Source: an uncultured Saprospiraceae bacterium (GTDB taxonomy: Bacteria > Bacteroidota > Bacteroidia > Chitinophagales > Saprospiraceae). From it: DNA of 64,000 nt. The stretch lies in the NCBI GenBank assembly GCA_938045585.1, contig CALIAU010000022.1, forward strand, positions 62,001 through 126,000, read 5' to 3'. The position numbers were made by a program, and so were the translations under genes. The notes beneath the pieces are model-generated. The model was not told the DNA's origin. It was given only the letters and a program-made list of their open reading frames with translations, and did not search any database. Within the stretch, counting starts at the first letter, position 1. Each line of letters starts with the position of its first letter. Below are positions 5,872 to 58,474 of the stretch, one piece after another.

Positions 5872-5889
5872 ACCCACAACAAGATTACT

Positions 5890-38092: not shown

Positions 38093-41000
38093 TTACTGTT
38101 TAAAAATCTGCATTGATTTAGAAACATGTTTATTCGTAATCGTAATTATATATAAACCAGAATTTAAACTTTCCATATTAATGGACTTATTCTGGATAGT
38201 GCCCGACTGGACAAGTTTTCCGTTTGTATTAAACACTGCATAGCTTCCGCCATCTACAGATGTAAATATCTGTGAAGTAAATGGATTAGGGAATACTTTG
38301 AATTCAGACTGTTCTAAATCAATAGTTCTAATTTCTGTATACGTTATTGTATTATCAAAGTCTACTTGTTTGAGCTTATAGTAGTTTACACCTACACTTG
38401 GATTCTTGTGCGTGTAGGTATAAGCAGATAGTTGCGTTGTATTGCCATTTCCTTTCACTCTACCCACAGCAACAAAGTCAAGACCATTTTCACTATGTAA
38501 GATTTCAAAGTAATCGTTATTCGTCTCGCTAGCAGTTCTCCAATTCAATTCTACTTCATCCCTTGATAGCCTAGCTGTGAAATCAATAAGTTCTACATCC
38601 AGAGCTACTATAAAGTATCCAAAATCAGCTGTGTTATGGTCATCGTCAGTGCCTAGTACAACATCTATTGCATGATCGAATCCACCATCTTCATCATAAG
38701 TTTGCGTATAAGCATCTAATACACCTTTAGTAATATTACATGGGTCTACTTCGATGCTATAATTACCTGGTGGGAGATTATCAAACATGTATTCACCATT
38801 TCCGTCAGTAGTTGTAGTGATAGGCATCCCATTGCTATCTAGTACGGGCATTCCCATAGCATCTAAAAGATTGAGTATAACTCCTGGGATAGGACCTTCT
38901 CCTGGGTCTAGGACTCCATCACCGTTATCATCTTCCCAAATAAGGTTACTTATACTAGAGTTTCCTTGATATCCAAAGTCTTCCAAAACTGCGTTTTCGC
39001 CTGGTCCTAAAGTTACCTCAGATGTACTATCAAATGCTCCGTCTGGATCTCCTGTGTTCGTATAACCAGCTGGTGGCGTCACAGTTACAGTATAGTCACC
39101 CGGCGGTAAATCAACAAATTCATATTTTCCGCTGGCATTTGTTACTGCTGTTCCAATAACTGCTCCTGTGGCATCTGTAAGAGTTACAGTTACCCCTGCA
39201 ATTCCCATTTCTCCAGGATCTTGTACTCCATCTCCGTTTGTATCCTCCCAAATAAAGTCTCCAATAGATCCATTTCCTTGGTATCCAAAATCTTGATCAT
39301 CATTATCTTCTCCTGGTGCTAAAGTAACAGCTGCAGTATCGTCAAATGCGCCATTCGGATCTGCTGTATTGTCATATCCGGCTGGAGGCGTTACAGTTAC
39401 TGTATAATCACCTGGCGGTAAATTTTCAAAATCATAATTCCCCATGGCATCTGTCACCGCTGTACCTACCACTGCACCTGTTGCATCTGTAAGAGTTACG
39501 GTCACCCCTGCAATTCCCATTTCTCCAGGATCCTCTACACCATTTCCATTTGTATCTTCAAAAATAGTGTCTCCAATTGATCCGGTCCCTTGGTAACCAA
39601 AATCTTCTACATCAATATCTTCTCCCGCTCCTAGAGTAACTTCTGTTGTGCTATCAAATGTACCATCAGGATCTCCCGTATTTACATATCCAGCAGGAGG
39701 TGTCACTGTAACTGTATAATCACCTGGAGGCAAATTTTCAAAATCGTAATTCCCCATAGCATCAGTCACTGCAGTACCAACTACAGCACCATTTTCATCT
39801 GTTAATGTAACTGTTACGCCTGCTATTCCTGTTTCACTTGGATCTTGTATTCCGTCTCCGTTTGTATCTTCCCAAATTGTATCACCAATAGAACCTGTTC
39901 CTTGATAACCAAAATCTTCTACATCAATATCTTCCCCAAGCCCTAATGTAACATCAGTTGTGCTATCAAATGTGCCATCTGGATCTCCCGTGTTTGCATA
40001 TCCAGCTGGAGGAGTAACGGTAACGGTGTAATCACCCGGCGGTAAATTTTCAAAATCATAATTCCCCATGGCATCCGTTATCGCAGTAGCTACTACATTG
40101 CCATTTGCATCTGTAAGTGTTACTGTAACTCCTGCAATTCCCATTTCACCGGGATCTTGCAAGCCATCTCCGTTTGTATCTTCCCAGATATAATCTCCAA
40201 TAGAGCCTGTTCCACTTAGACCAAAATCTGCTGTCTCATGTGTACCACCATCCGGTAAAGAAACGATGGTTGTATTATCCGGTGATGCTGTTCCACTATC
40301 TTCATCAAAAGTAGCATTGTAACCTGCTGGTGGAATTATCTCTACAGTATAGTCACCTGGCGGTAAAAATCCTGAATTCCATTCACCATTTGCATCTGTT
40401 ACCACAGAGGCAAGAAGCGTTCCGCCACTTGAATATATGTTTACTGTTACTCCAGGAATTGGAGCTTCGTTTGCATCTTGTATACCATCCATATTTAAAT
40501 CTAGCCATACATAGTCACCAATAGAAGATGGTTCTCCTTCTCCTGTAAACTGTACTTCTCCTGGATTTGGACAGTTTGCTCCAGCATCACCACTTACAAC
40601 AACTATCGTGTTACAAACCTGCTCTACTGTGGCGCCGTTATCAAAAATCCAGAAGTTGGATGTACCGATTGCTCCACCTCCGGAACCATCTCCAAATCCT
40701 ACGGCTCCTTCTCCACAGACAGAGGCATTTGGACCGTTGATAATATGATCATCATCTAACGCATAGCAAACGCCACTTTCTATCAACCAAAAGCTGTTAT
40801 CATTTTGTCTTACGTCATCACTAAAATATGCCTCAGCACCATCATACATATGCCACACCGAATCATCGTTCAATTCCACATCAGAACCACCATTATGACA
40901 GTCCGCTAAGCCTCCTGTCAATATGGTTCCATCTGCGCATTGTGCTTCATCAGCCCCTGGGTCTGACGGGGAATTAATCACTATACAACCAACGCAGGCT

Positions 41001-41347
41001 AGAGTATCCATGTAAAATGTACCATATACTTCTACGATTGCATTATTGTTCAATATAAGTCCATCACTAGGATCACCAGCACTAAAGTTTAATGTTCCTT
41101 CTATCACAAGACTTCCTGTTAAAGTAAATGGGTCGCTTGCCGGTGTGGAAGGATCTGCATCTGTAAATGTAACAGTCGTTCCGGCTGAAATAATAATATC
41201 ATCCGTACTGGATGGAAGTGAACAACTCGCAGGTAGACCCCAGGTGGCACAATCATTCCAATCACCGTCTGTGACTGAAACATATTGACTGTAGGCAGTT
41301 TGTTGAATACATAATAAGGAAAGGAGGAAAAGTATAGATAGTCTCAT
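38093..41347 (-). CDS. Giant surface protein with SdrD B-like repeats and T9SS sorting domain
   Basis: A 1084-residue protein: signal peptide (1-20), a unique N-terminal region (to about 273), six tandem SdrD B-like domains at about 274-905, and a C-terminal T9SS type A domain. Repeat hallmarks are GSIGDxIWEDTNGDGxQDPG and the DFENLPPGDYTV segment. The Asp/Asn-rich loops fit calcium binding, as known for SdrD B. The tail has FKVFPNPFTSQIF. It probably forms a rigid stalk for adhesion. Monocistronic, with its own terminator. Confidence 0.9.
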   Translation of the reverse strand: MRLSILFLLSLLCIQQTAYSQYVSVTDGDWNDCATWGLPASCSLPSSTDDIIISAGTTVTFTDADPSTPASDPFTLTGSLVIEGTLNFSAGDPSDGLILNNNAIVEVYGTFYMDTLACVGCIVINSPSDPGADEAQCADGTILTGGLADCHNGGSDVELNDDSVWHMYDGAEAYFSDDVRQNDNSFWLIESGVCYALDDDHIINGPNASVCGEGAVGFGDGSGGGAIGTSNFWIFDNGATVEQVCNTIVVVSGDAGANCPNPGEVQFTGEGEPSSIGDYVWLDLNMDGIQDANEAPIPGVTVNIYSSGGTLLASVVTDANGEWNSGFLPPGDYTVEIIPPAGYNATFDEDSGTASPDNTTIVSLPDGGTHETADFGLSGTGSIGDYIWEDTNGDGLQDPGEMGIAGVTVTLTDANGNVVATAITDAMGNYDFENLPPGDYTVTVTPPAGYANTGDPDGTFDSTTDVTLGLGEDIDVEDFGYQGTGSIGDTIWEDTNGDGIQDPSETGIAGVTVTLTDENGAVVGTAVTDAMGNYDFENLPPGDYTVTVTPPAGYVNTGDPDGTFDSTTEVTLGAGEDIDVEDFGYQGTGSIGDTIFEDTNGNGVEDPGEMGIAGVTVTLTDATGAVVGTAVTDAMGNYDFENLPPGDYTVTVTPPAGYDNTADPNGAFDDTAAVTLAPGEDNDDQDFGYQGNGSIGDFIWEDTNGDGVQDPGEMGIAGVTVTLTDATGAVIGTAVTNASGKYEFVDLPPGDYTVTVTPPAGYTNTGDPDGAFDSTSEVTLGPGENAVLEDFGYQGNSSISNLIWEDDNGDGVLDPGEGPIPGVILNLLDAMGMPVLDSNGMPITTTTDGNGEYMFDNLPPGNYSIEVDPCNITKGVLDAYTQTYDEDGGFDHAIDVVLGTDDDHNTADFGYFIVALDVELIDFTARLSRDEVELNWRTASETNNDYFEILHSENGLDFVAVGRVKGNGNTTQLSAYTYTHKNPSVGVNYYKLKQVDFDNTITYTEIRTIDLEQSEFKVFPNPFTSQIFTSVDGGSYAVFNTNGKLVQSGTIQNKSINMESLNSGLYIITITNKHVSKSMQIFKQ
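38946..40526 (-). repeat. Tandem 312-bp repeats encoding SdrD B-like domains
   Basis: The DNA encoding the SIGD start of each unit recurs at 38946, 39258, 39570, 39882, 40194 and 40515. Four intervals are exactly 312 bp (104 residues) and the last is 321 bp. Middle units are nearly identical in protein sequence, implying recent duplication or gene conversion. The outer units are more divergent. Confidence 0.85.
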
Positions 41348-41763: not shown

Positions 41764-42411
41764 CTAATGCAAGTCCACATGTTTAATTCCAGCTATAATT
41801 CTATGATCGAGAAAATTTTCCTCTGGTGGAATAGGGCAAGAATAACCTGTCGTATATGAACAATAGGGTTGATACGATAAATTAAAATCTATGACAATCT
41901 TTGTTTTGTCTTCAGGTATCTGAACGTCAATGTATCTACCACCTCCATAAGTTTCTTCGCCTGATGTTAGATCAGTGAAAGGAATGAAGAGAGAATTTTC
42001 GTAGCCAGGATATGTGCTTACACTTTTATATAGAAGCAGGGAATAGGGGGTTCCGTCAAGTGTGAAACTGGCCTTACCATAGATTTTATATTTTGCAATC
42101 CTGCTTGTACTCGTCTTCATACCTATCTTTTTAGGATTGTCATACACTTCAAAATCTGCTGTAATTCTGTACTTATCCGCATAAGGGAAAAAAGGGTGAT
42201 ATCCTCCTTGTATGAATTTTTCTCTTTGAGTTTCACTCAGTATGGACTTTTCCTTATCTGCATACGTGCTATTCAATTCTTGTTGATGTTGATAAGCAAA
42301 CTCTTTTGGCGTTAAATTAGAGCTGTCAATTTCATATTGTTTTTGAGCCATTTTAGGTGTACAGGCTACAAAGCATAGTAGAAAGAATAATGCGAATTGC
42401 GAGAATCTCAT
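41764..42411 (-). CDS. DUF1684 family lipoprotein
   Basis: A 215-residue lipoprotein (lipobox LCFVAC, Cys17). The motifs PYADKYRITADFEVYDN, TSGEETYGGGRYIDV, NLSYQPYCSYTTGYSCPIPP and EENFLDHRI match DUF1684, whose role is unknown. It lies 69 bp downstream of the TonB-dependent receptor gene on the same strand and may be part of the same transcript. It is preceded by its own AT-rich gap, so a separate promoter is also possible. Confidence 0.85.
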   Translation of the reverse strand: MRFSQFALFFLLCFVACTPKMAQKQYEIDSSNLTPKEFAYQHQQELNSTYADKEKSILSETQREKFIQGGYHPFFPYADKYRITADFEVYDNPKKIGMKTSTSRIAKYKIYGKASFTLDGTPYSLLLYKSVSTYPGYENSLFIPFTDLTSGEETYGGGRYIDVQIPEDKTKIVIDFNLSYQPYCSYTTGYSCPIPPEENFLDHRIIAGIKHVDLH

Positions 42412-42480: not shown

Positions 42481-45111
42481 CTAGAGTTGCATGCGAATAG
42501 AAAAATTTGGTGTAAACCCAATTCCCTGTCTATCATAAAATGCTAATTCAAATGGTGTTTTGGTATAGTCAATATAATATTGTCTTTTAATAACATTAGT
42601 TCTATTGTACACATTTTGAATATGCAGGCCAAACTCCACCCATCGTTTTTTCTCATTTCCATATTGCCATTTATACAATAAAGAAAGATCTAAGTTGTGA
42701 TAAGGAGCTACCGTTTCTCTCAATAAATTATCGTACTCAATCCCATAGTAGAGGCTCGGTTCGGTAATCGTAATAAACTCTCTGCCTACAGAAAAATATC
42801 TTCCAGAATTGTATTTCCATCTGCTTGAAACTGTCCAATCTTTTTTATTAAAAGATTGCATGAAGGAGAGTTTGTGTCTTTGTGTAAAAGGACTCTTTAT
42901 TTCAAATTCTTCTTTCTGTTTTACTTCAAGATTTTCATCTGTTAATTCATAGGTCCATATACACCGCCAATGCTTGTTCTGAAAATGACTGGAAAATTCA
43001 AGACCACGTACAGATAAATCTGCAAAGGCAAAAGGATCTTCTTCAACGGCAAAATCGAGTGCGGAAGTCCAAATGTTTTCAGCTTTCTTAGTGTATGCAT
43101 CTACAGTTAATTTCCAGCGATCAAACATATATTTTAGACCAATACTAGTTTGTTCATTTTGGACAACCCAGATAAAGTTATCCGATTCTGGTCTTTCATC
43201 TGATAAATACCATATACCTTTTTCTACTTCTAGAACAGAGGTGAATAATCGTCTATTTAAATTTTGGTGAAATTTTCCATAGTGGGCATGTAGGGTAAGT
43301 TTTGAGTTTAGTGTATGTGATATATGAATACGGGGTTCAATGAACTTCCTATCTACTAAGCTAAAACCAAAATCAGAATATCGGATACCTGTTTCAATGA
43401 GGGTCCTAGGTATAAATTTCCACTGCCCACGTAAAAATGCACTCTGTTCATTTGTGCTTGCTCCATTAATAACATTAATTAAACCCTGAGCACGTACACG
43501 CGTTGTGTCCAAAAATAGAACATCCCATTCTTCTTGCTGAACGCCTAGTTTTACATCTATCCACTTATGCGAGTAATTTAAATCAATACTATATTGCTCC
43601 TGATCTACATCATTTTCCCTGAATTGATCCCTGCCCAATTTTTTCCCAATATCCTTGGAGAATAAATAGTGATTCCTATACCTACTTCCAGTATATAAGG
43701 CATTTAAATGTAACTTACTAGAGAACCTATGTTTGGCTGTGATACTCCATCCGATATTTGATATTTGTAGATCATCTTTCTTAGTTGCATCGTCAAAAAA
43801 CCCATCAAAATAAGAGTATTCAAATCGATTTCTGATACTCAGTAGGGAAGCAGAAATTTCAGTTTTATCACTGATATTATAATTCATAAGAAAGGACAGA
43901 TCATCAAAACTAAAACGTCGCTCTATCTGTTCCTGTCCTCTAATCCCAAAAAAGTCGATATAAAATTGATCGTTTTCTAATTGACCAAATTGAAAGCTTT
44001 GATCAAAATAATTATTGTAAACCGAAGAGTTAAATAAATAGTTATGTGATTTTCGATATGCTATTTTTGCTGATAATTTATCTTTTATAATTGGAAGCTG
44101 AAGACCGATGTTGCCATAAATAAGATCAGAAAAAATACGCACTTTAAAATCATTGTTCGCTTTCACACTTGATTTCAAAAGTATAGAACCGGAAGCCTGA
44201 CCTGATTGATCAGCTGAGCTCCCATTTCTTGTTATATGGATATCGTCTACCATAAATGGATTGACGCCACTTACTTTTCCATAAAACAAACTGGTTTGTA
44301 ATAGCCTAATATTATTCCACTTATAGCTTACCTGATCGGGAGGCCCTCCTCTTATTTGTAGGTCATTAAGAGACTCGCTGGTACTATGAATGCCTGGAAG
44401 TAGCTGGGCTTTTTGTAAAAGATCCTGATCAGAGACACCTGCTATGTCTATGTCATGCAATGTCTCTTGATTTTCTAAGCGATTAGTACGATGTGTACTC
44501 AAAAAATCGCGAATGATAATTTCACCAAGGATATGATTTGCATTATCCAGGACAATCAGACCTCCATTTTTTATGGCACGCATTTTTATTGTACGTGTGG
44601 CGTAACCAATAAATGAAATGTTCATTTCTTCTTCTTCTGAGAAGAATCCTTTTACAGTGCATCTTCCATCAATATCTGCTTGAAATAGAAGATCAAGTGC
44701 AGGAAAGTGAATGTTGCAAAAAGGAAGGGTCTCGTCATCCGTATTTTTTATAGTAAAGCTATAAGTGGGAGACTCAATAGGCGATGCGTCTTTTTTAGTA
44801 AGCGCATAGATATTATTTTCTAAAGGAAGAATATGGATATGTAATTTCTGCTCCACCTGATTCAGAATGTCAAGTATATCTCCTGAAACAGAAAAACTAT
44901 GTACTTTCTCTTTGAGTAGACTATTATCATAGTTAAAATCTAAAGAAAGTGTGTTTGCCAATTTATCAAAAACTTCCTTCTCAGATTTTTCCTTAAAACG
45001 AATATGATTTTGGCCCACTAATGATTTAGCACACAAACAAATTATAACAACTAATAAGATTCTACTTATTCCTGCTAAATAGAATGGTATGTTCTGATTG
45101 TTTGGATTCAT
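42481..45111 (-). CDS. TonB-dependent outer-membrane receptor with STN domain
   Basis: This 876-residue receptor has a signal sequence, then an STN-type N-terminal signalling domain (about 35-105: FKEKSEKEVFDKLAN). A carboxypeptidase-like insert follows (about 110-190), then the plug (LRGGPPDQVSYKWNNIRLL) and a 22-strand-type barrel. STN domains contact an anti-sigma factor, here FecR encoded just upstream with a 50-bp overlap. The ligand is not evident. No SusD partner is present, so it is a FecA-like signalling receptor rather than a Sus pair. Confidence 0.9.
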   Translation of the reverse strand: MNPNNQNIPFYLAGISRILLVVIICLCAKSLVGQNHIRFKEKSEKEVFDKLANTLSLDFNYDNSLLKEKVHSFSVSGDILDILNQVEQKLHIHILPLENNIYALTKKDASPIESPTYSFTIKNTDDETLPFCNIHFPALDLLFQADIDGRCTVKGFFSEEEEMNISFIGYATRTIKMRAIKNGGLIVLDNANHILGEIIIRDFLSTHRTNRLENQETLHDIDIAGVSDQDLLQKAQLLPGIHSTSESLNDLQIRGGPPDQVSYKWNNIRLLQTSLFYGKVSGVNPFMVDDIHITRNGSSADQSGQASGSILLKSSVKANNDFKVRIFSDLIYGNIGLQLPIIKDKLSAKIAYRKSHNYLFNSSVYNNYFDQSFQFGQLENDQFYIDFFGIRGQEQIERRFSFDDLSFLMNYNISDKTEISASLLSIRNRFEYSYFDGFFDDATKKDDLQISNIGWSITAKHRFSSKLHLNALYTGSRYRNHYLFSKDIGKKLGRDQFRENDVDQEQYSIDLNYSHKWIDVKLGVQQEEWDVLFLDTTRVRAQGLINVINGASTNEQSAFLRGQWKFIPRTLIETGIRYSDFGFSLVDRKFIEPRIHISHTLNSKLTLHAHYGKFHQNLNRRLFTSVLEVEKGIWYLSDERPESDNFIWVVQNEQTSIGLKYMFDRWKLTVDAYTKKAENIWTSALDFAVEEDPFAFADLSVRGLEFSSHFQNKHWRCIWTYELTDENLEVKQKEEFEIKSPFTQRHKLSFMQSFNKKDWTVSSRWKYNSGRYFSVGREFITITEPSLYYGIEYDNLLRETVAPYHNLDLSLLYKWQYGNEKKRWVEFGLHIQNVYNRTNVIKRQYYIDYTKTPFELAFYDRQGIGFTPNFSIRMQL

Positions 45112-45988
45112 ATGGTAAGCTAGTCTCTATAAATCGAATACATTTTTCTAAGTCATTTGTAGGTAAGATACCAGTAAAAACATCTTTAGAAATACTTTGC
45201 TCTAAGTTAAAGTTGATCTTATAAAATCGCTCCAAATCTCTAAACACAATTTCAATAGGCATTGTTTGATAGGCTCTATAATTTTCTCTCCAATCTTTTC
45301 TTTCCTTAGACTCTGCCCGCACATCTTGTAAATTAGAATCTAGAATTAGTATAGACTGATCCTGAGTAATTTCTTCTGACTTTCCCGTATTATCACTTAC
45401 ACGAACCCTTCCTTCCTTGCAGTACACTTGCATATACTTATTATCAATACTCCATACATCAAACTGAGTTCCTAGAACTTCTATTTTACCTGCCTCTGTC
45501 TCTACGATAAATGGAACACCTTTATTCACTTCAAAAAATGCTTGACCCTCTAATGCAATATGTCTTTTAGTCTGCCAGTCGCCGTCTGCATATGCAAGCG
45601 AACTGTTCGGGCCTATAAGCACCTTAGAACCATCTGCAAATGCAATTGGGGTGTTTGCATTAAACCTTGTTTCTACTTCTTTTAGATTATTTCCGAAAAA
45701 AAGAGAATAGGCTAGAAAGCCCAGGAGAGACAGGATAACTAAGCCAAATATATATTTTAACCAATTTGCTTTTGAAGAATGAACTGACTTTGTATTGTTT
45801 ATTCTTTTTTGTGCAAGATTATCCCATATTTCTTCTCGCGGCTTTACAGAAATAGTGTAATCTTCTTGCTTCGACAGGAGTGCTTGTAAGTAGTCCATAT
45901 CGTAGCTTTCTTCCAATAGAAGACTTTCTTCATCACTTATTTCATGGGAAAGCCATTTTGCTAATAGTATATCATGAGATGTGCTCAT
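45062..45988 (-). CDS. FecR-family anti-sigma factor
   Basis: A 308-residue protein with a cytoplasmic N-terminus, one membrane segment (about 75-95: YIFGLVILSLLGFLAYSLF) and a periplasmic FecR domain. That domain has FADGSKVLIGPNSSLAY, EGQAFFEVNKG.PFIVET and VLGTQFDV, followed by a DUF4974-like end. It receives the signal from the STN domain of the overlapping TonB receptor and controls the ECF sigma factor encoded upstream, from which it is separated by 31 bp. Confidence 0.92.
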   Translation of the reverse strand: MSTSHDILLAKWLSHEISDEESLLLEESYDMDYLQALLSKQEDYTISVKPREEIWDNLAQKRINNTKSVHSSKANWLKYIFGLVILSLLGFLAYSLFFGNNLKEVETRFNANTPIAFADGSKVLIGPNSSLAYADGDWQTKRHIALEGQAFFEVNKGVPFIVETEAGKIEVLGTQFDVWSIDNKYMQVYCKEGRVRVSDNTGKSEEITQDQSILILDSNLQDVRAESKERKDWRENYRAYQTMPIEIVFRDLERFYKINFNLEQSISKDVFTGILPTNDLEKCIRFIETSLPYESKQSEHTILFSRNK

Positions 45989-46019
45989 ATATTATAAAAC
46001 GTTTTTTCTGGTCTAAACC

Positions 46020-46526
46020 CTACCTAGGTAATTGTATTTTATTTTCTAATAAATGTTTAAGTGCCTTAGACATGCGTTTTTCTACAGCTTTTACGCCAAT
46101 TCCTATAGATTCTGCAATTTCTTTGTAACTGAGTTTGTCAAAACGATGTAGGATAAATACCTCCTTGCTAGCTGGACTCATTGCATCCATGACCTGTTCT
46201 AATTTGGTTTTGAATTCTTGCTCCTCTAAAAGAAATTGCGCATCCTGTGTCTCTACACTTGAATCGTTCGTTTGCTGCACATGCTTGAGACGTACTTGGT
46301 TTTTCCTATAGGCATCTATCTGCAATCGTTTAGCTGTTGTAAACAAAAAAGACTTTGCCTTTTCTTCTTGTACTTTGCTGCAATTGTTCCACAATCTTAA
46401 AAAACAGTTCTGTACCTCATCAGCTGCCAATTCCATATCAAGGCCACGTGCTTGCAAGAAGTGCTGCAAAGGGATTTGCCACCTATCAAAAACCCTGCGA
46501 AATATATGTTCTGAACAGACACCCAT
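46020..46526 (-). CDS. ECF-type RNA polymerase sigma factor
   Basis: A 168-residue sigma-70 family factor with region 2 (ELAADEVQNCFLRLWNNC, then FLFTTAKRLQIDAYRK) and region 4 (LEQVMDAMSPASKEVFILHR, then LSYKEIAESIGIGVKAVEKR). It lacks region 3 and fits the Bacteroidota FecI-like group. It is the first gene of the sigma-FecR-receptor set. It starts 98 bp from the divergent GH74-GH9 gene, so it may control its own operon and possibly the enzyme. Confidence 0.93.
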   Translation of the reverse strand: MGVCSEHIFRRVFDRWQIPLQHFLQARGLDMELAADEVQNCFLRLWNNCSKVQEEKAKSFLFTTAKRLQIDAYRKNQVRLKHVQQTNDSSVETQDAQFLLEEQEFKTKLEQVMDAMSPASKEVFILHRFDKLSYKEIAESIGIGVKAVEKRMSKALKHLLENKIQLPR

Positions 46527-46624
46527 TATAATTTTTATTTAAGTGGTAGGGTATTAGAGTACAAGCACGTTATACTCACAAGTAATAAGAACCCAATTTA
46601 CTCAAAGCACTAAAATTAATCATT

Positions 46625-49600
46625 ATGAAAAAGAGATTATTATTCATTCTTACTATTTCGAGTTTATCTTTCTTTTTACAAGCCCAAGGGACATGGTCTA
46701 CATTGAAAACTGGGGCGGGTGGATGGATAACGGGTATGGACATACATCCAGATGGTACAAAATTTATTCGTTCTGACGTGGGAGGAGCTTATCGACTAGA
46801 CAATGGTTCCAATACATGGAAACAAATTGTTACAAATACCTCCATGCCAGCCTCTGACGTGCATTGGTCTAAATATCAAGGTGTCCTTAGCCTTGTCACA
46901 GCACCCTCCAATGTAAATCGTTGTTATATGGCCTATCATAATACCATATATAGTTCAGATAACCAAGGGGAGAATTGGGAACGAACGAATTTTCCAAATT
47001 TATTTATAGAGCCAAATTCGGATTATTCGAAATTGGCAGGTGAACGCCTTGCAGTGGATCCTCTGAATGAGAATCGTGTCTATTTTGGTAGTATAAATAG
47101 AGGATTATTTTTCACAGAGGATGGTGTAAATTGGTCTAAGATAAATGCAGTACCAAATGGAACCGAAGAAAGAGGAATACGGTCGATAGTCTTTGATACG
47201 AGTTCTGGAAATTCAGGGAATGCAACAAATAATATTTATGTAGCAGTAGATGGAGAGGGTATATTTAGATCCACGGATGCAGGAGCAAATTTTTTAAATA
47301 TAACAAATGGTCTATTTACGCATAATGATCCCATGTTTTTGGATATGGAAATTGATGGTGCAGGGAACCTATATATAACAGGTTCAGATAAGACAGATGA
47401 TGGATCTATTGAATCTATTGGAATGTTTCACTTTGATGGAGAAAATTGGACACAGAAGTTTAATGAAGATCTAAGCATTTCCTATTCTGAAATAGCTATT
47501 GATCCAAATAACTACGATAAGATCATGTTATTTTCTGAAGGATTTAGTGATACCTGGCTTACATCAAATATTATGTCTTCTGCGCCACAATGGGAAAAAA
47601 GAGCAATGCAGAGGAATGCACAAAATGTGCCATGGATGGAGTGGACGGAAACAACTTGGTTTACTCTAGGAGAAATTGAATTTGATCCGATTATTGAAAA
47701 CAGAGTATGGATTTCCTTTGGAACAGGGACTTACTATATCGATGATGATGGATCAAACCCTATGATATGGAATGAGTCTTCAATAGGCCAAGAACATTTA
47801 GTGTCAAACGATGTAGTCAGTTTTTCGAATGGAAATAGTCTAACTGCACATTGGGATTTTCCTGTCTTCTTACATACACCTGAAAATAACTATCCAGAAA
47901 AGCATTTGCCCACAGATCGATTTAATTCTTGTTGGGATTTATCGCAAAGTCCGACTGATGAAAATTTTGTAACTGCATTAATTGAAGATAATAGATATTG
48001 CTGTTGGGATGAGGAAACAAGAAGTAGTGTATATAGTGAAGATGGAGGCCTTAGCTGGAATACCTTCCCGAGTATGCCGGAGGGTGAATTTGATCTAATT
48101 TTTGGACAAATTGAAGTGTCTGCTCAAGATAATAATAATCTAATATGGCTGCCGGGAGGCAATCGGAGTCCCTACATTAGTTTTGATAAAGGGAGCACAT
48201 GGCAAGAATCTGAACTGCCAGGAGCATCCGAAAATTGCTGCCTATCAGAACCGTTTTTCAAAAGAAAGGCTTTGATAGCAGATAAGGTAGCGGCACATAC
48301 CTTTTATATTTATGACTGGGGTTCTGGTGATGTCTTTGTTACTTCTGATGGAGGTTCCAATTGGAATAGAAATGCTTCCGTACTCCCTGCTTGGTCATTT
48401 AACGCTAAGATTACATCCGTGCCAGGAAAAGAAGGACACTTATTTTTTGTAAATGGACCTGAAGAATCTGAAGATTTAATCGAAGGATTATTTAGATCCA
48501 CGGATGGAGGTTCTACTTGGACAGAAATTGAAGCTACGACGAAGGTGCTTAATGTAAGTATTGGAAAGGCTGCACCCAATGCAATTTATGAGACAGTTTA
48601 TATCTGCGGAGAAGTAGATGGCGTTTTTGGATATTATAAATCTACTGATAATTGTATGAGTTGGTCCTCATTGGGTAAGTATCCACTCGGCATATATGAT
48701 TGGCCAGTAGTCATGGAAGCAAATCCATTTGAGTATGGAAATCTAAAGATCGGTTTTAAAGGGAATGGATTTGTAGAATACTCTGAAGAGATAGACATGG
48801 AACCAGTTGTTACAGAGCATATCCATTTAGACCAATTTGGCTATAAACCTGATTTCACAAAAGTTGCTGTTATTTCTGATCCACAGGTTGGATATAATTC
48901 AGATGCTAATTACACGCCTGGTTCTCTTTTGAAAGTGATTGATGAAAGTTCGGGTAATACGGTTTTTTCTGGAGAACCAATTCTCTGGAGTGGGGGAGCA
49001 ACACATGGACAATCGGGTGATAGAGGATGGCATTTTGATTTCAGTAGTCTTACTGCACCAGGTAGTTACCATATTTTAGATGAAGAGAATAATACGATGT
49101 CTTATAGTTTTGAAATTTCGGAATCAGTGTATAATAATGTATTAAAGGCAGCAACGAAAATGTTTTATTACAATAGATGTAATATGGCGAAAGAGACACC
49201 GTACGCTGAGTCACCGTGGACAGATGGTAATAATTTCAATAACAATTTGCAAGATGAAAACGCACGCTATATTTATGATCAAGGAAATGCTAGTCTAGAA
49301 AAAGATCTTTCAGGTGGATGGTTTGATGCGGGGGATTATAATAAGTATGTCACCTTTGCGCATAGTACCGTACATAACCTCTTAACTGCCTACGAAGAAA
49401 ACCCTATGGTCTTTGGTGATAATTGGAATCTGCCTGAATCCGGAAATGGTATTCCAGATCTTTTAGATGAAATAAATTGGGAATTAGAATGGTTAGAGAA
49501 AATGTCAAATGAAGATGGTTCTGTACATATTAAAATGGGCAGTAAGAACTTTTCCGAGAACATAAGTAGTCCGCCAAGTGCAAATTTTGATCAACGATAT

Positions 49601-51166
49601 TATGGACCAATTTGTTCAGCAGCATCCATAGCGGTAGCATCTATGTTCGCCCACGCTGCTGTTGCCTATGAACATATAGAAGGTCTTCAAACATATGGAA
49701 ATAGCTTAGAGCTGCAAGCTGTAACAGCCTTTGATTATTTCTTAGAAAAGAAAAATGCAAATGATCTCGATACGGCCTGCGATGATGGATCAATAGTGGC
49801 TGGCGATGCAGACTGGGAAGCAGACTTTCAAAATGAAATTGCATTGATTGCCGCAGTATATCTGTTTGAGTTAACGGGTCAGTCTATCTATGGAAATTAT
49901 ATTATCGAGAATGTCTTTGATGCACAGGCCGTTCAAAACACTTGGATGGGGCCATACACAAATCAAGTCATGGAAGCGCTCTTTCATTATACTACCTTGT
50001 CAACAGCGGATGCAACCACAGCTAGCACTATTTTAAATGCTGTAAATCCGCATGTGTCACAGGATTGGGATGGTTTTTATGGACAGAACGATTTAGATCT
50101 CTATCGTTCTTATATGCCTGATTGGTCATATCATTGGGGATCCAATTTACCCAAGGCTGAATATGGTAATTTGAATAAGATGGTTGTAAAGTATGGGATA
50201 AACCCATCAGATAATGATTCCTATCTGCAAAAAGCAGAAGAACTAGTACATTATTTTCATGGGGTAAATCCATTAGGAAAAGTCTACCTGTCTAATATGG
50301 CAAGTTTAGGAGCAGAGAATAGTGTCGACGAATTATATCACACATGGTTCTATGATGGTACGGAATATGATAACGTGCAAGACTCCTATGGACCTGCACC
50401 AGGTTTCATGCCAGGTGGACCTAATCAAAATTATAGCTTTAGTGAAAACACACCTCCTTTTGGTCAGCCCGCGCAAAAATCTTACATGGATTTTAATACA
50501 GGATATCCAGATGCCTCATGGGAGATTACAGAACCTGCTATTTATTATCAAGCAGCATATGTACGTTTATTAGCAGGCTTTGCAAATGGGGATGTAACGC
50601 TTCCTGTAAACCTCTTAAGTTTTGATGCCTATTTATCTGGTGAAGATGTAGAGTTAGAGTGGTCTACGAGCAATGAAGTAAATACAGACCGATTTGAAGT
50701 AGAAGTGTCATTAGATGGATCTGTGTTTAGTACGGTAGGAGAGAGAACTGCTGCTGGTAATACTACGAGTGTAGAAATGTATACTTATACAGATGAAGAT
50801 GTCACTACTGTCTATGCTGGAGCTACAGTTCTTTACTATAGATTACGTATTGTAGATCAGAATGGAAGTTTTACTTTCTCAGATGTCCGATCTATAGACT
50901 TGGAAAGTACAAGAGTTACTGAAACGGAGCCATCTAATCTTAAAATATATCCTAATCCTGTTAGAAATGAATTACGTATAGAATCATTGGATGGGAAGGA
51001 TATAACTAGGATTACAATCTTGAATATTTTAGGTAAAACTGTTTTAACAAAAGATGCATTTGGTCAAAATCTAAGGCTCGATGTATCAAGTTTAGAAACG
51101 AGTAGCTATTTAATATTAGTGGAATTCGATAATAGAGTGGAAAAACAAATGTTCATTAAATCATAG
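46625..51166 (+). CDS. Secreted GH74-like plus GH9 multidomain glucanase with T9SS tail
   Basis: A 1513-residue protein with a signal peptide (1-20). Residues about 22-725 are a beta-propeller with GH74-like start (GGWITGMDIHPDGTKFIRSD, then VGGAYR) and repeated STDGG/SEDGG turns. An Ig-like CelD_N domain follows (about 731-830). The GH9 catalytic domain is about 840-1310, with GGWFDAGDYNKY near 896, VNPLGKVYL near 1210 and SWEITEPAIYYQAAY carrying the predicted acid Glu near 1303. A T9SS type A tail ends the protein (IYPNPVRNEL near 1438). Predicted to cut beta-1,4-glucan or xyloglucan. Confidence 0.9.
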   Translation: MKKRLLFILTISSLSFFLQAQGTWSTLKTGAGGWITGMDIHPDGTKFIRSDVGGAYRLDNGSNTWKQIVTNTSMPASDVHWSKYQGVLSLVTAPSNVNRCYMAYHNTIYSSDNQGENWERTNFPNLFIEPNSDYSKLAGERLAVDPLNENRVYFGSINRGLFFTEDGVNWSKINAVPNGTEERGIRSIVFDTSSGNSGNATNNIYVAVDGEGIFRSTDAGANFLNITNGLFTHNDPMFLDMEIDGAGNLYITGSDKTDDGSIESIGMFHFDGENWTQKFNEDLSISYSEIAIDPNNYDKIMLFSEGFSDTWLTSNIMSSAPQWEKRAMQRNAQNVPWMEWTETTWFTLGEIEFDPIIENRVWISFGTGTYYIDDDGSNPMIWNESSIGQEHLVSNDVVSFSNGNSLTAHWDFPVFLHTPENNYPEKHLPTDRFNSCWDLSQSPTDENFVTALIEDNRYCCWDEETRSSVYSEDGGLSWNTFPSMPEGEFDLIFGQIEVSAQDNNNLIWLPGGNRSPYISFDKGSTWQESELPGASENCCLSEPFFKRKALIADKVAAHTFYIYDWGSGDVFVTSDGGSNWNRNASVLPAWSFNAKITSVPGKEGHLFFVNGPEESEDLIEGLFRSTDGGSTWTEIEATTKVLNVSIGKAAPNAIYETVYICGEVDGVFGYYKSTDNCMSWSSLGKYPLGIYDWPVVMEANPFEYGNLKIGFKGNGFVEYSEEIDMEPVVTEHIHLDQFGYKPDFTKVAVISDPQVGYNSDANYTPGSLLKVIDESSGNTVFSGEPILWSGGATHGQSGDRGWHFDFSSLTAPGSYHILDEENNTMSYSFEISESVYNNVLKAATKMFYYNRCNMAKETPYAESPWTDGNNFNNNLQDENARYIYDQGNASLEKDLSGGWFDAGDYNKYVTFAHSTVHNLLTAYEENPMVFGDNWNLPESGNGIPDLLDEINWELEWLEKMSNEDGSVHIKMGSKNFSENISSPPSANFDQRYYGPICSAASIAVASMFAHAAVAYEHIEGLQTYGNSLELQAVTAFDYFLEKKNANDLDTACDDGSIVAGDADWEADFQNEIALIAAVYLFELTGQSIYGNYIIENVFDAQAVQNTWMGPYTNQVMEALFHYTTLSTADATTASTILNAVNPHVSQDWDGFYGQNDLDLYRSYMPDWSYHWGSNLPKAEYGNLNKMVVKYGINPSDNDSYLQKAEELVHYFHGVNPLGKVYLSNMASLGAENSVDELYHTWFYDGTEYDNVQDSYGPAPGFMPGGPNQNYSFSENTPPFGQPAQKSYMDFNTGYPDASWEITEPAIYYQAAYVRLLAGFANGDVTLPVNLLSFDAYLSGEDVELEWSTSNEVNTDRFEVEVSLDGSVFSTVGERTAAGNTTSVEMYTYTDEDVTTVYAGATVLYYRLRIVDQNGSFTFSDVRSIDLESTRVTETEPSNLKIYPNPVRNELRIESLDGKDITRITILNILGKTVLTKDAFGQNLRLDVSSLETSSYLILVEFDNRVEKQMFIKS

Positions 51167-52968: not shown

Positions 52969-53940
52969 TTACTCGAATGGGTATTTGATACCAGTCATAG
53001 AACGTATTTCATCTAAAACTTGAATGAGTTGAATACTATCTTGATGTGACCAATGTATGCTTTCCATTTGATTATTTTGAATAGCTGCATAGCATTCTTC
53101 TATTTCATGCGTGTAGCCCCTGCCTACTTTACTATGGTGATAGATGTTTCTTAGACCATCCTTTTCTAAGGTATAGCTATCTGGTTCGTGCCACCGTTTG
53201 TTGATATAGATACGGCCTTTAGTTCCTTCTATTTTGGCTACCATATCAGATGCTCTATGAAAGCCTCCAATAAGATGAGCATCGCAATTCTCATAGTCAA
53301 AACTAATCTCTGTTTGTAGATCTACTCCTGTTGTGTGTAAGATAGAACTTGCCCTTATTTTTTTAGGTATACCTTTGAGAAAGTAGGAGAGAAAGACTGG
53401 ATAAATACCTACGTCTAATAAAGCACCTCCGGCTAAATGAGGGTTTAATAATCGACTCTCATCTGGATCATTTCTGTACATTGAAAATTCAGCATCGATA
53501 TGCCTGACTTCTCCTATAAGTCCGGAATCAATTTTCTTTTTTACCTCTAATATGCATGGATTAAAACGAGTCCAAAGTGCCTCCATTAAAAATCGTTGAT
53601 TCTCTTTTGCACAATCGATTATTGCTTTAAGCTGTGCTGAGTTCACAGCTATGGGTTTTTCGCACAGCACATGTTTTCCTGCCTGCAGTGCATCTATGGC
53701 ATATGTATGATGACTATTGTGTGGAGTGGCAACATAGATGATCTCAACGTGAGGATCTTCTAGGAGTTCTGCATAAGATCCATAGGCACGCTCTGCCTTA
53801 TGGTGTTTAACGAATGCATTGGCCTTGTCCAAACTTCTAGATCCTACTGCATACACTGAGTTGTTTTGTACTAATTGTACATCTTCACAAAACTTATCTG
53901 CTATGTTTCCTAAGCCTAATATGCCCCAACGTAAATGCAC
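52969..53940 (-). CDS. Gfo/Idh/MocA family oxidoreductase
   Basis: A 323-residue NAD(P)-dependent enzyme. The N-terminal Rossmann fold reads RWGILGLGNIADKF, followed by VATPHNSHHTYAIDALQAGK, CEKPIAVN (with the catalytic Lys) and the C-terminal substrate domain. Family members oxidise or reduce sugars and polyols. Alone on the minus strand between the carbonic anhydrase and a PKD lipoprotein. Close to the xylose genes, so a pentose substrate is possible, but this is only context. Confidence 0.9.
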   Translation of the reverse strand: MHLRWGILGLGNIADKFCEDVQLVQNNSVYAVGSRSLDKANAFVKHHKAERAYGSYAELLEDPHVEIIYVATPHNSHHTYAIDALQAGKHVLCEKPIAVNSAQLKAIIDCAKENQRFLMEALWTRFNPCILEVKKKIDSGLIGEVRHIDAEFSMYRNDPDESRLLNPHLAGGALLDVGIYPVFLSYFLKGIPKKIRASSILHTTGVDLQTEISFDYENCDAHLIGGFHRASDMVAKIEGTKGRIYINKRWHEPDSYTLEKDGLRNIYHHSKVGRGYTHEIEECYAAIQNNQMESIHWSHQDSIQLIQVLDEIRSMTGIKYPFE

Positions 53941-53966
53941 CTCTTTTTCTTTTTATTAAAATATCA

Positions 53967-54002
53967 AAAAAAAAACGGACTTGGAGAAAATCCAAGCCCG
54001 TT
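53967..54002 (-). terminator. Terminator of the PKD lipoprotein gene
   Basis: On the minus strand AACGGGCTTGGA/TCCAAGTCCGTT (plus arms 53974-53985 and 53991-54002, one mismatch) with a 5-nt loop is followed by about nine T. It lies 20 bp past the stop of the gene at 54022-55590. Confidence 0.85.
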
Positions 54003-54021
54003 ATACATCGTGTACGTATTC

Positions 54022-55590
54022 TTATTGTTCGAATCTAAAATCACTGTAGTAAACTTCTCCTGACTCAGCATGCCCTGCGCCTCCAAATTCAAGAATGACT
54101 AGGTCAATATCATTTCTGACACCACAAGCTACACTCGTGTCATCCAATGCGCCTGCAAAGTCCAAAGTTACGGTCGTCCATGTGTCTAATGGAAGATCTG
54201 ATTCTGTTGCTGTTGTCCAACAACACCAAAATTCTTGATCTTCAGAAGCATCACCTAACTTTATTATAAGTTGATTTGCTAAGGCACCATTGAAGTCATT
54301 TGTACTTGGTACATATACATCTACTGTTGCCTTAGAGAATGTGTATGTTCCACAATCATCAAATAGAATATCAGCATCTCTTGACCATAATTTTAAATCC
54401 GTGAAACCACCATCAGCATCTGTTCTTGTGTATTTTGTACAAGCAACACCATCAATGCTTTGATCATATTCTAGGATACTAGAAGAGCTTACCTCGTCAA
54501 CACCTGTGCCTACATTTCCTTCCGTATCAAATCCGTGTGAAATATCCGCAGAGGAAATTTCATCTGAAAAATCTACGGGAACAAAAATATTTCCGTTAGG
54601 ACGTATCTCAGGAGTAGTGCCTCCATAAGATGCAAACGTGAAATAGTGTAAATTCACACTTCCGTCAAAATCGTTATCCGCTACTACGTTTCTTAGAACT
54701 AAATAAGATACATCACCCTCCGTGAATGTTCTATGGATAGTATATGTAATTCCATTTCCTACATCGTGACTTGACTCTCCTGATTTAAATCTTGGATTGG
54801 AAATATGTGCACCTGAACCAATTACTTCAAGAGTACTAGCCGCTTCGTCGATCACATAATTTTGTGTTGTTTTTACGAAATCACTTACATCAACACCATC
54901 AGCTCGTACTGGTAGGTTACCATCAACAAGATCAATATTTACCTCGTTAAATGCTGTTCCTGCCCAAATTCCAAACTCACCCCAGAAGTCTCCATTCCAA
55001 TCAATATTATACGTACCATCTGCATTAAACGTGTACACATCATTCGCCGCTGAAAATCGTTGCGCTAAGGAATTTTGACAAACAAAAGCGCCATCTACCT
55101 GTAGGTCACCTAGATTAAACCAAGGCGCTACAACCTGTGGGTCATAATCCCAAGAACCATCGTCCGGTCCTAGGTGAAAAGCAACAAAATCTTCTCTAGC
55201 AAGTACCCAGTCCTTACCGCTTATAAAGTTAAATAATGGACCTCCACTAGAAGTTCCTTCTTCTACTGTGATAGATGAAGAAGTCATATCCGTACCATCA
55301 TCATTGGTAACAGTAAGACTTACAGTGTAGGTTCCATCCGCAGCATAGGTATGCGTAGGGTTCTCATCCGTGGATGAATTAGAATCTCCAAAATTCCACT
55401 CAAAAGATTCACCTCTTAATGAAGTATTCGTAAACGTAGCAGTTAGTCCGCTAGTTGTTGAAGTAAATGCAGCTTCGGGTCCGTTTTCTGAACCCTCGCC
55501 ATCTTTTCCACATGAGGAAATGATAAACATCATACTTGCAATTGCACATACAAAAAGTATGTTTAGATTAAAAATTTTAAATTTTTTCAT
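54022..55590 (-). CDS. PKD-domain lipoprotein, likely glycan-binding
   Basis: A 522-residue lipoprotein (lipobox IISSC, Cys27) with a PKD domain at about 38-112 (FEWNFGDSNSSTDENPTHTY and YTVSLTVTNDDG). Two following regions are beta-sandwich-like and rich in aromatic residues, the last resembling carbohydrate-binding modules (TWTTVTLDFAGALDD, then VYYSDFRFE). No catalytic residues recognised. It lies 81 bp downstream of xylA on the same strand, so it may bind a xylose-containing glycan at the surface. It has its own terminator. Confidence 0.75.
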   Translation of the reverse strand: MKKFKIFNLNILFVCAIASMMFIISSCGKDGEGSENGPEAAFTSTTSGLTATFTNTSLRGESFEWNFGDSNSSTDENPTHTYAADGTYTVSLTVTNDDGTDMTSSSITVEEGTSSGGPLFNFISGKDWVLAREDFVAFHLGPDDGSWDYDPQVVAPWFNLGDLQVDGAFVCQNSLAQRFSAANDVYTFNADGTYNIDWNGDFWGEFGIWAGTAFNEVNIDLVDGNLPVRADGVDVSDFVKTTQNYVIDEAASTLEVIGSGAHISNPRFKSGESSHDVGNGITYTIHRTFTEGDVSYLVLRNVVADNDFDGSVNLHYFTFASYGGTTPEIRPNGNIFVPVDFSDEISSADISHGFDTEGNVGTGVDEVSSSSILEYDQSIDGVACTKYTRTDADGGFTDLKLWSRDADILFDDCGTYTFSKATVDVYVPSTNDFNGALANQLIIKLGDASEDQEFWCCWTTATESDLPLDTWTTVTLDFAGALDDTSVACGVRNDIDLVILEFGGAGHAESGEVYYSDFRFEQ

Positions 55591-55671
55591 TGTAATTAAT
55601 AGTCTTTTATAAAGAAATCTGGTTAGGATTTCATTTGGTATGGTTTCAATTTAATCGTTATTAAATTAGGT

Positions 55672-56982
55672 CTAAATATACATGTTAATAAGTTGCTCAA
55701 ATAATTCTTGTTTTCCACTTCGTTGCTCCGGTTCTCCCACTTCTATCGCATAGTTTCTCAACTCTTCAAACGTAAGTTTTGAATTTTCAAAGTCCAACCC
55801 TTTTCCTTCCACAAATGAACTATATCGATTACTGCGTAGTGCACTATAGTCCGAATTTTTTAAAATTTCATTTGCCGTAATCAAGGCTCTAGCAAAAGCA
55901 TCCATGCCTGAAATATGAGCGATAAACAAATCTTGATAATCCGTGGAATTTCGTCTAAGCTTAGCATCAAAGTTTATACCACCAGATGTTAAACCCTTAG
56001 ACTGCAGAAAGATAAGCATCATTTGTGTAAGCTCATAGATATCTATAGGAAATTGGTCCGTATCCCAACCATTTTGATAATCGCCTCTATTTGCGTCAAT
56101 ACTTGCTAAAACACCTGCATTTGCTGCAATCTGCATCTCATGTTCCATAGTATGTCCCGCAAGAGTGGCATGATTAACCTCTAAATTAAGAGCAAAATCA
56201 TCCAAAAGCTCATATTCTCGTAAGAATCCAATGACCGTTGCCGCATCAAAATCATACTGATGTTTGCTAGGTTCCATAGGTTTCGGCTCTATTAAGAAGG
56301 TGCCTGTAAAACCATGCGATCTTCCATAGTCTTTTGCCATATGTAGGAATCGAGCAAGATGGTCCAACTCCTTTTTAATATTTGTATTTAGTATGGAATT
56401 GTAACCTTCACGACCTCCCCAGAAAACATAATTTTCACCTCCTAGCTTAATGGTAGCATCAATTGCTGCTTTTACTTGGACGGCTGCACGCGCAACGACT
56501 TTGAAATCTGGATTTGTAGCAGCACCATTCATGTACCTTGGATGCGAAAATAAATTTGCTGTACCCCAAAGTAATTTGACACCAGTATCAGCTTGTTTTT
56601 CTCTAGCGTAATCTGTAATTTTTTCAAGTCGCGATTCGTATTCTTGAATGCTGTCTCCTTCGTCCACCAAGTCGATATCATGAAAACAATAATAGGGGAC
56701 ACCTAATTTTGTAATAAACTCAAAAGCGGCATCCATCTTATCTTTAGCACGCTCCATAGGATCTTTGGATTCTAACCAAGGCATTGGACGTGTAGGAGAC
56801 CCGAAAGGATCTGCACCACTACCGCAGAAGCTGTGCCAATAGGCTACAGCAAATCTAAAATGGTCTTTCATGGATTTCCCGTCCACTAATTTGTTCTCAT
56901 CATACCACCGGAAGGCAAGTGGATTCTTACTGTTTCTTCCTTCGAATTGTATTTTTTCAATATCAGTAAAATATGTGCGCAC
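55672..56982 (-). CDS. xylA: Xylose isomerase
   Basis: A 436-residue enzyme converting D-xylose to D-xylulose in the cytoplasm. The family blocks are [62 protein letters not shown] and [18 protein letters not shown], which carry the metal-binding residues. The length matches the class II (longer) xylose isomerases. It begins 1 bp after the xylB stop, so the two are one operon, xylB first. Confidence 0.97.
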
Positions 56983-56983
56983 G

Positions 56984-58474
56984 TTACTTGTTTTTAATGA
57001 GAGTATTTAAATCATTTTTCCATATTTGATATGCATTCTCATACGCACTATCCTTTGTAGTTGGAGAAAATGTTTGTATGAATGGAGTATTAGCTACTGC
57101 TTCCTTAAAGTCGGAGTAAAATCCCTGTGCTATTCCACTAGCTTTAGCAGCACCATCAGCACCTGTAGTATCCATCACCTGTATTTCGCAGCCTAAAAAT
57201 TCGGCAATGGTACTAGAGAAAACAGGAGACTGGAATAAGTTATCATTACCAACACGGATATGCTGCGGATCCACGCCCAATTCTTGCAGTATATGAATAC
57301 CATACACAAAGGCAAAGGCAATACCCTCTAGACCTGCGCGGATTATATGATCCTTGGTGTGTAGAGCAAATTGTAAATTATTTAATTGAGCACCTGTTTG
57401 CAAGTTATTTAGCATGCGTTCCGCTCCGTTGCCAAAGGGGATCATACGTAAACCTAGCGAACCAACAGGTATGTTTGCAATCCTAGATTCTAATTCTGCA
57501 TATGTTTTTTTTGTACTGTGGATTTGCTTTCTAATCCAAGCATATTGACTCCCCGCACCATTTATGCACAGGAGTTGCCCTATACGTATTTGCTCTTTGC
57601 TATGATTGACATGGGCAAAACTATTGATACGTTGTTTGCTATCTGTTTTTAACTGATCAGAGACGCCATATACCACACCAGATGTACCTCCTGTAGCAGC
57701 TATTTCTCCGGGCTCAAGTATAGATAAAGAAAGGGCATTATTTGCTTGGTCTCCTGCTCGATATGTAACTGGAATGCCCTGCGCTAATCCCGTTGCTTTT
57801 GAGGCAGAATTAGATGTGACTCCTTGCTCACTTGTGCAAGGGAGAATTTCAGGAAGAAGACTTGCATCTATATTAAAGTGTTCTAAAATTTTCTTTGAAA
57901 CAACATGTTGTCTAAAGTCCCAAAAAATACCCTCAGAAAGGCCGCTCATACTTGTAGTAATATTTTCCGTTAAACGCATGGCAATGTAATCACCGGGCAA
58001 CATTATCTTATGAATCTTAGAGTAATTTTCTGGTTCGTGTTCTTGTACCCAGGCCAATTTTGCAGCGGTAAAGTTGCCCGGACTATTAAGTAGGTGCTCA
58101 AGGCAGTAGGACGAACCCAGTTCTTTATAGGCGGAATCGCCGTAGGGGATGGCACGGCTATCACACCAAATAATTGCAGGTCGAATGATTTGCTTGTGTT
58201 TATCTACAAGTACCAAGCCATGCATCTGATAAGAAATACCAATAGAAGAAATCTGATTTCTAGTCTCAGGAAATTCTGCCAATAATTGTTTGCTCGTATG
58301 ACAAACAGCTTTCCACCATTCTTCCGGGTCTTGCTCAGCCCATCCAGCCTTTATTGCAGTAATAGGCATTTCGCTTTCTGGATATTGAGCTATACCCAAT
58401 CTTGCTCCAGACGCAAGATTAACCAAGGCCGCTTTTATGGAAGAACTTCCTATGTCATATCCTATGGCATACAT
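56984..58474 (-). CDS. xylB: Xylulokinase
   Basis: A 496-residue FGGY-family kinase phosphorylating D-xylulose. The N-terminal [16 protein letters not shown] carries the phosphate-binding motif. The segment [20 protein letters not shown] contains the conserved catalytic Asp, and GGTSGVVYG and [20 protein letters not shown] follow. The partner gene xylA decides the substrate among FGGY sugars. The 5' flank has an inverted repeat that may be an operator. Confidence 0.95.

Follow-up and report, generated by a model that had tools for sequence, protein, structure and literature searches.

In a 64,000-nucleotide stretch from an uncultured Saprospiraceae bacterium (assembly GCA_938045585.1, contig CALIAU010000022.1, positions 62,001 to 126,000; hereafter the window), a protein that carries two glycoside hydrolase domains, GH74 and GH9, is encoded beside the genes for an extracytoplasmic function (ECF) sigma factor, a FecR-type anti-sigma factor, and a TonB-dependent receptor (TBDR). 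This arrangement, first described in an earlier note made from the sequence alone, is real: the sigma, FecR, and TBDR genes all lie on the minus strand, and the enzyme gene diverges from the sigma gene across a gap of 98 bp. We consider it probable (about 0.75) that the locus constitutes a self-contained sensing circuit that serves one predicted surface enzyme, with the sigma factor reading a promoter of the form GTAGGGT-N15-CGTWW. In such a circuit, an STN-bearing TBDR would bind a ligand from outside, for which a beta-1,4-glucan oligosaccharide set free by the enzyme is the likeliest candidate, and the STN domain would relay the signal to FecR, which would free or activate the ECF sigma factor. 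The sigma factor would then recognize GTAGGGT-N15-CGTWW and transcribe both fecR-TBDR, as a positive feedback, and the divergent GH74-GH9 gene. Finally, the type IX secretion system (T9SS) would export the product, whose two catalytic modules on one chain would cut beta-1,4-glucan.

The first line of evidence is the constancy of the linkage. In the following, relatives are cited by our genome (G) and locus (L) numbers. GH74 and GH9 were found in one reading frame in at least 7 of 298 genomes of the family, and in a survey of 395 genomes of the phylum the fusion was recognized by matched span in the window's own genome only; both counts are lower bounds, in that scoring covered two candidates in each genome and not every long frame was opened. 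Six genomes (that of the window, G248, G144, G052, G066, and G074) have the order GH74-GH9, and G245 has the swapped order GH9-GH74 (locus L062; domains confirmed by scan). A sigma-FecR-TBDR set adjoins all seven fusions (the window, L001, and L058–L062), including the one with the swapped order, compared with 5 of 68 GH9-only genes and 2 of 8 GH74-only genes. Here, a gene was regarded as linked when a sigma relative occurred within 5 kb and a TBDR relative was present in the locus; this linked sample is not random, as L200 (one of the two linked GH74-only genes) and several sets were fetched via the TBDR, and G087 (L120) was scored as linked though its enzyme gene is 1.6 kb away. The linkage persists with receptor divergence to about 31% identity and with the swapped domain order. 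In G082, a genome of the same genus, the GH9 part occurs alone, is 77% identical, and also has the set adjoining. The same arrangement of enzyme and set recurs in the six other fusion loci, which is more than chance, and a chance neighborhood was rejected on the basis of these counts.

The second line of evidence is a promoter-like motif shared by the two divergent operons. GTAGGGT, 15 bases, and then CGTT or CGTA, oriented toward the enzyme gene, was read off the intergenic DNA at nine linked loci (those of the seven fusions plus those of G082 and G039), giving the consensus GTAGGGT-N15-CGTWW. Its placement was scored from 300 bp upstream to 60 bp inside each gene. Identical proteins were counted once, except in the class of other open reading frames (ORFs); loci L002–L025 (several of them duplicate G-locus contigs) were omitted, and the sets L174, L188, and L189, at contig ends, cannot show an upstream neighbor. 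The motif precedes 7 of the 7 fusion genes, which are defining and not independent, and 3 of the 5 linked GH9-only genes, two of the three being defining as well. At non-defining places, it was found before 22 of 32 FecR genes, both of the linked GH74-only genes, and 3 of 63 unlinked GH9 genes. It was found before none of the unlinked GH74 (0/6), sigma (0/32), or TBDR (0/33) genes and before 3 of 1,012 other ORFs, namely one FecR gene (L174) and two genes that diverge from the sets of their own loci (L202 and L203). The L202 protein (4263–6605, minus strand) has GEVED and T9SS domains and no glycanase domain by Pfam, and that of L203 (4125–6464, minus strand) is similar in place and length. 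When spacers of 8–25 bases were tested, 15 alone occurred: before 15 of 83 enzyme genes, 23 of 33 FecR genes, and 2 of 1,076 others (sigma and TBDR genes included). The probability of a chance match in a 360-bp region is 6 × 10−5 by base composition; the related loci are not independent, and no combined probability is given. In G196 (L074), the motif lies approximately 865 bp before the ORF and was scored as a miss, and in G095 it precedes a GH9 gene (L083), but the sigma factor is only 37% identical.

The simplest reading is that the motif would be the promoter of the set's own sigma factor. For Flavobacterium psychrophilum, CGT at the −10 box has been treated as the hallmark of ECF promoters (PMC9723704). 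The two blocks might instead form the operator of a separate DNA-binding regulator, as the FecR genes that lack the motif could indicate; we regard this as quite unlikely, since the motif is non-palindromic, has a single spacing, points to its target within approximately 150 bp of most starts, and carries in its downstream block the CGT expected of ECF −10 boxes. Taken as a sigma promoter, the shared motif makes the proposed induction of the enzyme testable. The earlier note had suggested such induction via the set from position, and the conserved linkage and the promoter-like motif now argue for it.

In the window's own genome (4.31 Mb), the exact motif occurs twice, once before fecR-TBDR and once before the enzyme gene, and the reversed control gave no match. 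A predicted promoter found exactly only twice points to a sensing circuit reserved for a single enzyme, which, judged by exact sites, would be the only secreted target in this genome. The regulon appears wider in relatives. In the receptor tree, from which TBDRs covering < 70% (e.g., L197 of G267) were omitted, one clade unites 19 sets from 18 genomes and contains all seven fusion sets, and in 10 of these 18 genomes a GH9 and/or GH74 gene with the motif inside the scored region stands beside the set. In G149, G213, G034, and G050, where the set is elsewhere, the motif precedes an unlinked GH9 gene. The motif gene of G034 and G050 encodes a divergent GH9-T9SS protein (55% identical between the two) outside the family GH9 survey list; this type (L269:1777–4422 and L272:1770–4418) has a long N-terminal part and a T9SS tail. 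Apart from G196 with its distant motif, the exceptions in the clade are G160 (set at a contig end; GH9 genes L068 and L069 without the motif), G219, and G263. Furthermore, 18 of 20 orphan motif sites in seven genomes (G034, G039, G050, G149, G213, G219, and G263) lie outside ORFs of ≥ 150 codons, and 16 sites precede an ORF of ≥ 150 amino acids within 400 bp. All 16 of these ORFs look secreted by a crude hydrophobicity rule, which 305 of 874 control ORFs also pass. Scanning 12 of the 16 revealed three DUF1800 proteins, two GH9 proteins, one reprolysin-type peptidase, and T9SS-tailed proteins, and L274 and L285 matched nothing. The sigma group therefore appears, by the placement of its putative promoter, to run secreted proteins, with GH9 and GH74 enzymes often among them. 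The DUF1800 genes under the motif are L271:625–2541, L273:2520–4445, and L277:2666–4522 (genomes G050, G149, and G213), and another DUF1800 gene (L201:8266–9984) follows a related sigma-FecR-TBDR set in G106, which links DUF1800 to the signaling group.

The sigma factor, FecR-type anti-sigma factor, and receptor are present as one set. The receptor has no close paralogue in the genome (next relatives 22–28% identical, with partial coverage), and the nearest other sigma factor is ≤ 31% identical. Where the earlier note had placed a sigma-FecR-STN receptor set 98 bp from the enzyme gene, the set, the gap, and the direction stood, but the STN domain was not detected by Pfam in the window receptor (it was found in 1 of 22 aligned receptors) and was seen by structure prediction only. 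In an AlphaFold model of receptor residues 1–330, which is confident to approximately residue 193 only, residues 35–110 match the signaling domain of FecA (1zzv, Z 8.7, rmsd 2.9, 77 aligned) and also those of PupA, FpvA, and FoxA. Residues 113–195 match the SusC NTE domain (9hfj, Z 11.8, rmsd 2.2, 80 aligned). The model thus points to a receptor built like a transducer despite the Pfam miss, and signal transfer may proceed as in FecA. The Plug match of the window receptor (20.1 bits) is below the cut-off of 23.9, but a Plug match at E ≤ 0.01 was obtained for 21 of the 22 aligned receptors; no NCBIfam model matched the window receptor at E ≤ 0.01. No SusD gene lies beside the receptor, the genome's four SusD (PF07980) matches being on contigs C24, C1, C6, and C14, and the window on C22.

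Several observations weigh against a dedicated circuit of this kind. First, base composition predicts approximately 1.4 exact matches for the own genome, so two is not many, and the evidence is therefore the location of the two exact sites and not their number. Genome-wide enrichment was not found: allowing one mismatch gave 33 matches in the own genome versus 83 for the reversed control, and across the 298 genomes the motif was no commoner than its reversed control (judged by eye, among the matches listed). We therefore confine our claim to the exact sites and where they lie. Second, 10 of the 32 FecR genes lack the motif, including that of G087, whose enzyme gene has it, and the window-type GH9 genes of G034 and G050 (L111 and L114) are also without it. 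Third, the motif serves other secreted proteins in relatives (DUF1800, reprolysin), and some receptors of the same clade have no GH9 or GH74 gene beside them. Additionally, secretin N0 domains match receptor residues 35–110 equally well (4jtm, Z 9.1), and with four SusD genes elsewhere in the genome, SusCD uptake could serve the products. Alternatively, the set might serve an unrelated ligand, such as an iron chelate, with the adjacency arising by chance or for other reasons and the enzyme being regulated otherwise. The receptor family is indeed broad, with a relative at E ≤ 1e−30 in 107 of the 298 family genomes (three candidates scored in each), and some of its sets have no GH9 or GH74 neighbor. 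We nevertheless hold an unrelated ligand to be very improbable, given that every fusion is linked to a set, that the same motif stands before both operons with no third exact copy in the genome, and that the unlinked GH9 genes of G149, G213, G034, and G050 are under the same motif.

The coordinates of the locus are summarized in Table 1. Past the TBDR gene lies a gene for a DUF1684 protein, which, among the loci compared, recurs only in G082, there with an extra N-terminal part. At 38093–41347 (minus strand) lies the gene for a 1,084-residue protein with SdrD-like repeats and an apparent T9SS tail (by eye).

Table 1. Features of the GH74-GH9 locus (positions in the window).
Feature	Position	Strand	Details
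GH74-CelD_N-GH9-FN3-like-T9SS C-terminal domain protein	46625..51166	+	1513 aa, ATG start; FN3-like spacer named by eye
GH74 domain (residues 22-717)	46688..48775	+	catalytic Asp candidates D51, D411
CelD_N Ig-like domain (residues 730-817)	48812..49075	+	profile match 1.6e-12
GH9 domain (residues 836-1316)	49130..50572	+	PF00759 3.6e-50; catalytic candidates D904, E1303
T9SS type A C-terminal domain (residues 1441-1512)	50945..51160	+	PF18962 3.9e-10, TIGR04183 1.6e-8
Predicted ECF promoter, enzyme gene	46546..46572	+	GTAGGGT-N15-CGTTA, ATG 79 bp downstream
Predicted ECF promoter, fecR-TBDR	45997..46023	-	GTAGGGT-N15-CGTTT, FecR ATG 35 bp downstream; begins at sigma gene 3' end
ECF sigma factor, FecI-like	46020..46526	-	168 aa
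FecR-type anti-sigma factor	45062..45988	-	308 aa
TBDR	42481..45111	-	876 aa: STN-like ~35-110, NTE/CarbopepD_reg-like 113-195, plug, barrel
DUF1684 protein, after TBDR	41764..42411	-	

The enzyme consists, in order, of a signal peptide, a complete GH74 domain, a CelD_N Ig domain, a GH9 domain, a spacer, and a T9SS type A tail, so that the GH74-like propeller, Ig domain, GH9 motifs, and T9SS tail previously noticed in the 1,513-residue frame were all found. The GH74 similarity spans residues 22–728, i.e., the whole two-propeller domain, as seen in the alignments to PDB 6p2m (1.3e−46, residues 22–717 to 10–689) and 2cn2, named a beta-1,4-xyloglucan hydrolase (1.4e−42, residues 24–728 to 13–737). 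The Pfam label for the propeller is Sortilin-Vps10 (3.3e−16), and the earlier note had raised the case of a propeller that matches only a non-enzymatic sortilin/BNR fold; the alignment to solved GH74 enzymes, however, runs over the whole domain and keeps the Asp pair. Of this pair, D51 falls on a position occupied by D in 2cn2 and by A in 2cn3, D411 pairs with the Asp of SAVGD, and both are invariant in 15 of 15 aligned GH74 sequences of the family. We take them to be the catalytic pair (D70 and D480 of 2cn2), with which their spacing agrees. In GH9, the motifs are DAGD (901–904), NPLG (within 1212–1222), and TEPAIYYQ (1302–1309), and D904 and E1303, which are presumably the catalytic residues, are invariant in 75 of 75 aligned sequences. 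The T9SS tail scored 34.4 bits against TIGR04183 (cut-off 23); this sorting domain bears out the idea of a T9SS-tailed enzyme, and by it the protein is a predicted type A cargo, probably located at the cell surface. In L064, L070, and L110, which are further large family proteins with GH9 or GH74, CBM4/9-type or CBM9 domains occur in place of a second catalytic domain.

The GH74 domain has one unusual feature. Residue 410 (47852–47854, plus strand), directly before the GH74 catalytic Asp candidate, is Trp (HWD), whereas four solved GH74 enzymes have Gly at the position preceding their catalytic acid (MGD, VGD, VGD, and LGD). Trp occupies this position in 14 of the 15 aligned GH74 sequences of the family, that of the window included, and may alter what fits at the cleavage site, and hence the specificity. 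In a Xanthomonas study, a glycine that sets the fit at the −1 subsite is named (G465; PMC8245568), and Trp410 might occupy the place of such a glycine. The odd HWD at the catalytic acid, together with a same-genus relative that lives without GH74, could also mean that the GH74 part is non-catalytic and acts as a glucan-binding platform for GH9. With both Asp candidates kept in every aligned sequence, we think this unlikely.

With regard to the substrate, the earlier note had named xyloglucan or cellulose for GH74 and cellulose for GH9. Xyloglucan as the substrate did not find support: a plain xyloglucan role is doubtful because no GH31 was found in the genome and because Trp stands before the GH74 catalytic acid. 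The same circuit may instead be aimed at cellulose or a different beta-glucan with few branches, of plant, algal, or biofilm origin, with GH74 clearing or nicking chains and xyloglucan being incidental, which we regard as a serious possibility at somewhat less than even odds. This idea draws on the lack of any GH31 (PF01055) match in the 97.96% complete genome, compared with matches in 6 of 14 control genomes, on the replacement of Gly by Trp410 in nearly all of the aligned family GH74s, and on the occurrence of GH9, with or without GH74, under the same control. However, the solved GH74 relatives with telling names are mostly xyloglucanases, one (7kn8) being named a cellulase, and GH9 enzymes can act on xyloglucan (BoGH9A 6dht; XacEgl9). 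Overall, cellulose or another little-branched beta-glucan and xyloglucan seem about equally likely as the substrate. At 52969–58474 (minus strand), approximately 2–7 kb past the enzyme gene, there are an apparent Gfo/Idh/MocA oxidoreductase, xylose isomerase, and xylulokinase (by eye), as in the Xanthomonas xyloglucan locus; no relatives of the xylose isomerase or xylulokinase were labeled in the set loci of the relatives compared.

We also analyzed the history of the fusion with quick trees. In the GH9 tree, the fusions fall into three separate parts (the window clade with G066; G074; and G245). The fusion label requires five changes, of which the starred branches force three, and these three may represent one gain and two losses; the counts use the 14 labeled of 75 rows. 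In the GH74 tree, the least inclusive group that contains all seven fusions (support 90) includes two unfused genes. Repeated fusion, loss, and domain exchange would each fit, and are not distinguishable from these trees.

Each component of the locus is of a known kind. As in FecI-FecR-FecA of Escherichia coli, a sigma factor, a FecR-type anti-sigma factor, and a TonB receptor with a signaling domain form one set, but the set in the window is linked to a secreted glycanase and not to an iron transporter. In E. coli, transcription of fecA depends on FecI and that of fecIR on sigma70 (PMC9249621), whereas in the window one predicted sigma site lies between sigma and fecR and the other before the enzyme gene. 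In Cytophaga hutchinsonii, also of the Bacteroidota, an ECF sigma factor controls an outer-membrane protein needed for cellulose in an atypical polysaccharide utilization locus (PUL; chu_1276–1280), with SusC/SusD pairs uninvolved, and an endoglucanase lies within the cellulose cluster (PMC12016534). That system is a multi-gene cluster, whereas the window has one bimodular enzyme divergent from its sensor. In Bacteroides, ECF sigma and anti-sigma factors regulate glycan genes, often with TonB-dependent SusC/D transporters (PMC10766802); unlike such PULs, the locus in the window has no SusD, and its receptor matches no NCBIfam model at the threshold given above. The description of the combination as unusual in the earlier note is therefore apt for the fusion, on the lower-bound counts of the two surveys, but not for the control, as ECF regulation of glycan genes via TonB receptors was already known. 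The GH74 (6p2m, 2cn2, and 6p2l) and GH9 (3x17 and BoGH9A 6dht) domains of solved enzymes are similar to those of the window protein and have the catalytic residues in common with them; the window protein differs in having both on one polypeptide and in the Trp that precedes the catalytic acid of GH74. The Xanthomonas xyloglucan locus (XyGUL) combines GH74 with TonB-dependent transporters, and xylose isomerase and xylulokinase are nearby (PMC8245568); the window genome differs in its lack of a GH31 match, and the portion of the XyGUL description consulted has no GH74-GH9 fusion. In a limited literature search by titles and the starts of abstracts, no GH74-GH9 fusion was evident, nor was a GTAGGGT promoter code, which is not proof of absence; a SusD-less regulon of one enzyme and its own sensor was likewise not found in the portions of literature covered by that search.

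In summary, the interpretation offered in the earlier note is partly supported, and what was a guess from the neighborhood has been turned into a prediction at the level of a promoter. A broader version, to which we give a little less than an even chance, is that this is a private sigma circuit that uses a promoter code specific to the lineage and whose entire regulon in its own genome would be the sensor operon and a two-headed glucanase. In the family, the code would track GH9 and GH74 through fusion, order swap, domain loss, and relocation, and the clade of Trp-changed GH74 domains may mean a substrate other than xyloglucan. The motif would provide a sequence signature by which glucanases, along with other secreted proteins under the sigma group, could be located in Saprospiraceae, and the pairing of GH74 and GH9, which occurs in both orders, may be a natural design for an enzyme with two activities. 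The locus would also offer a logic for glycan sensing in Bacteroidota without SusD in the locus.

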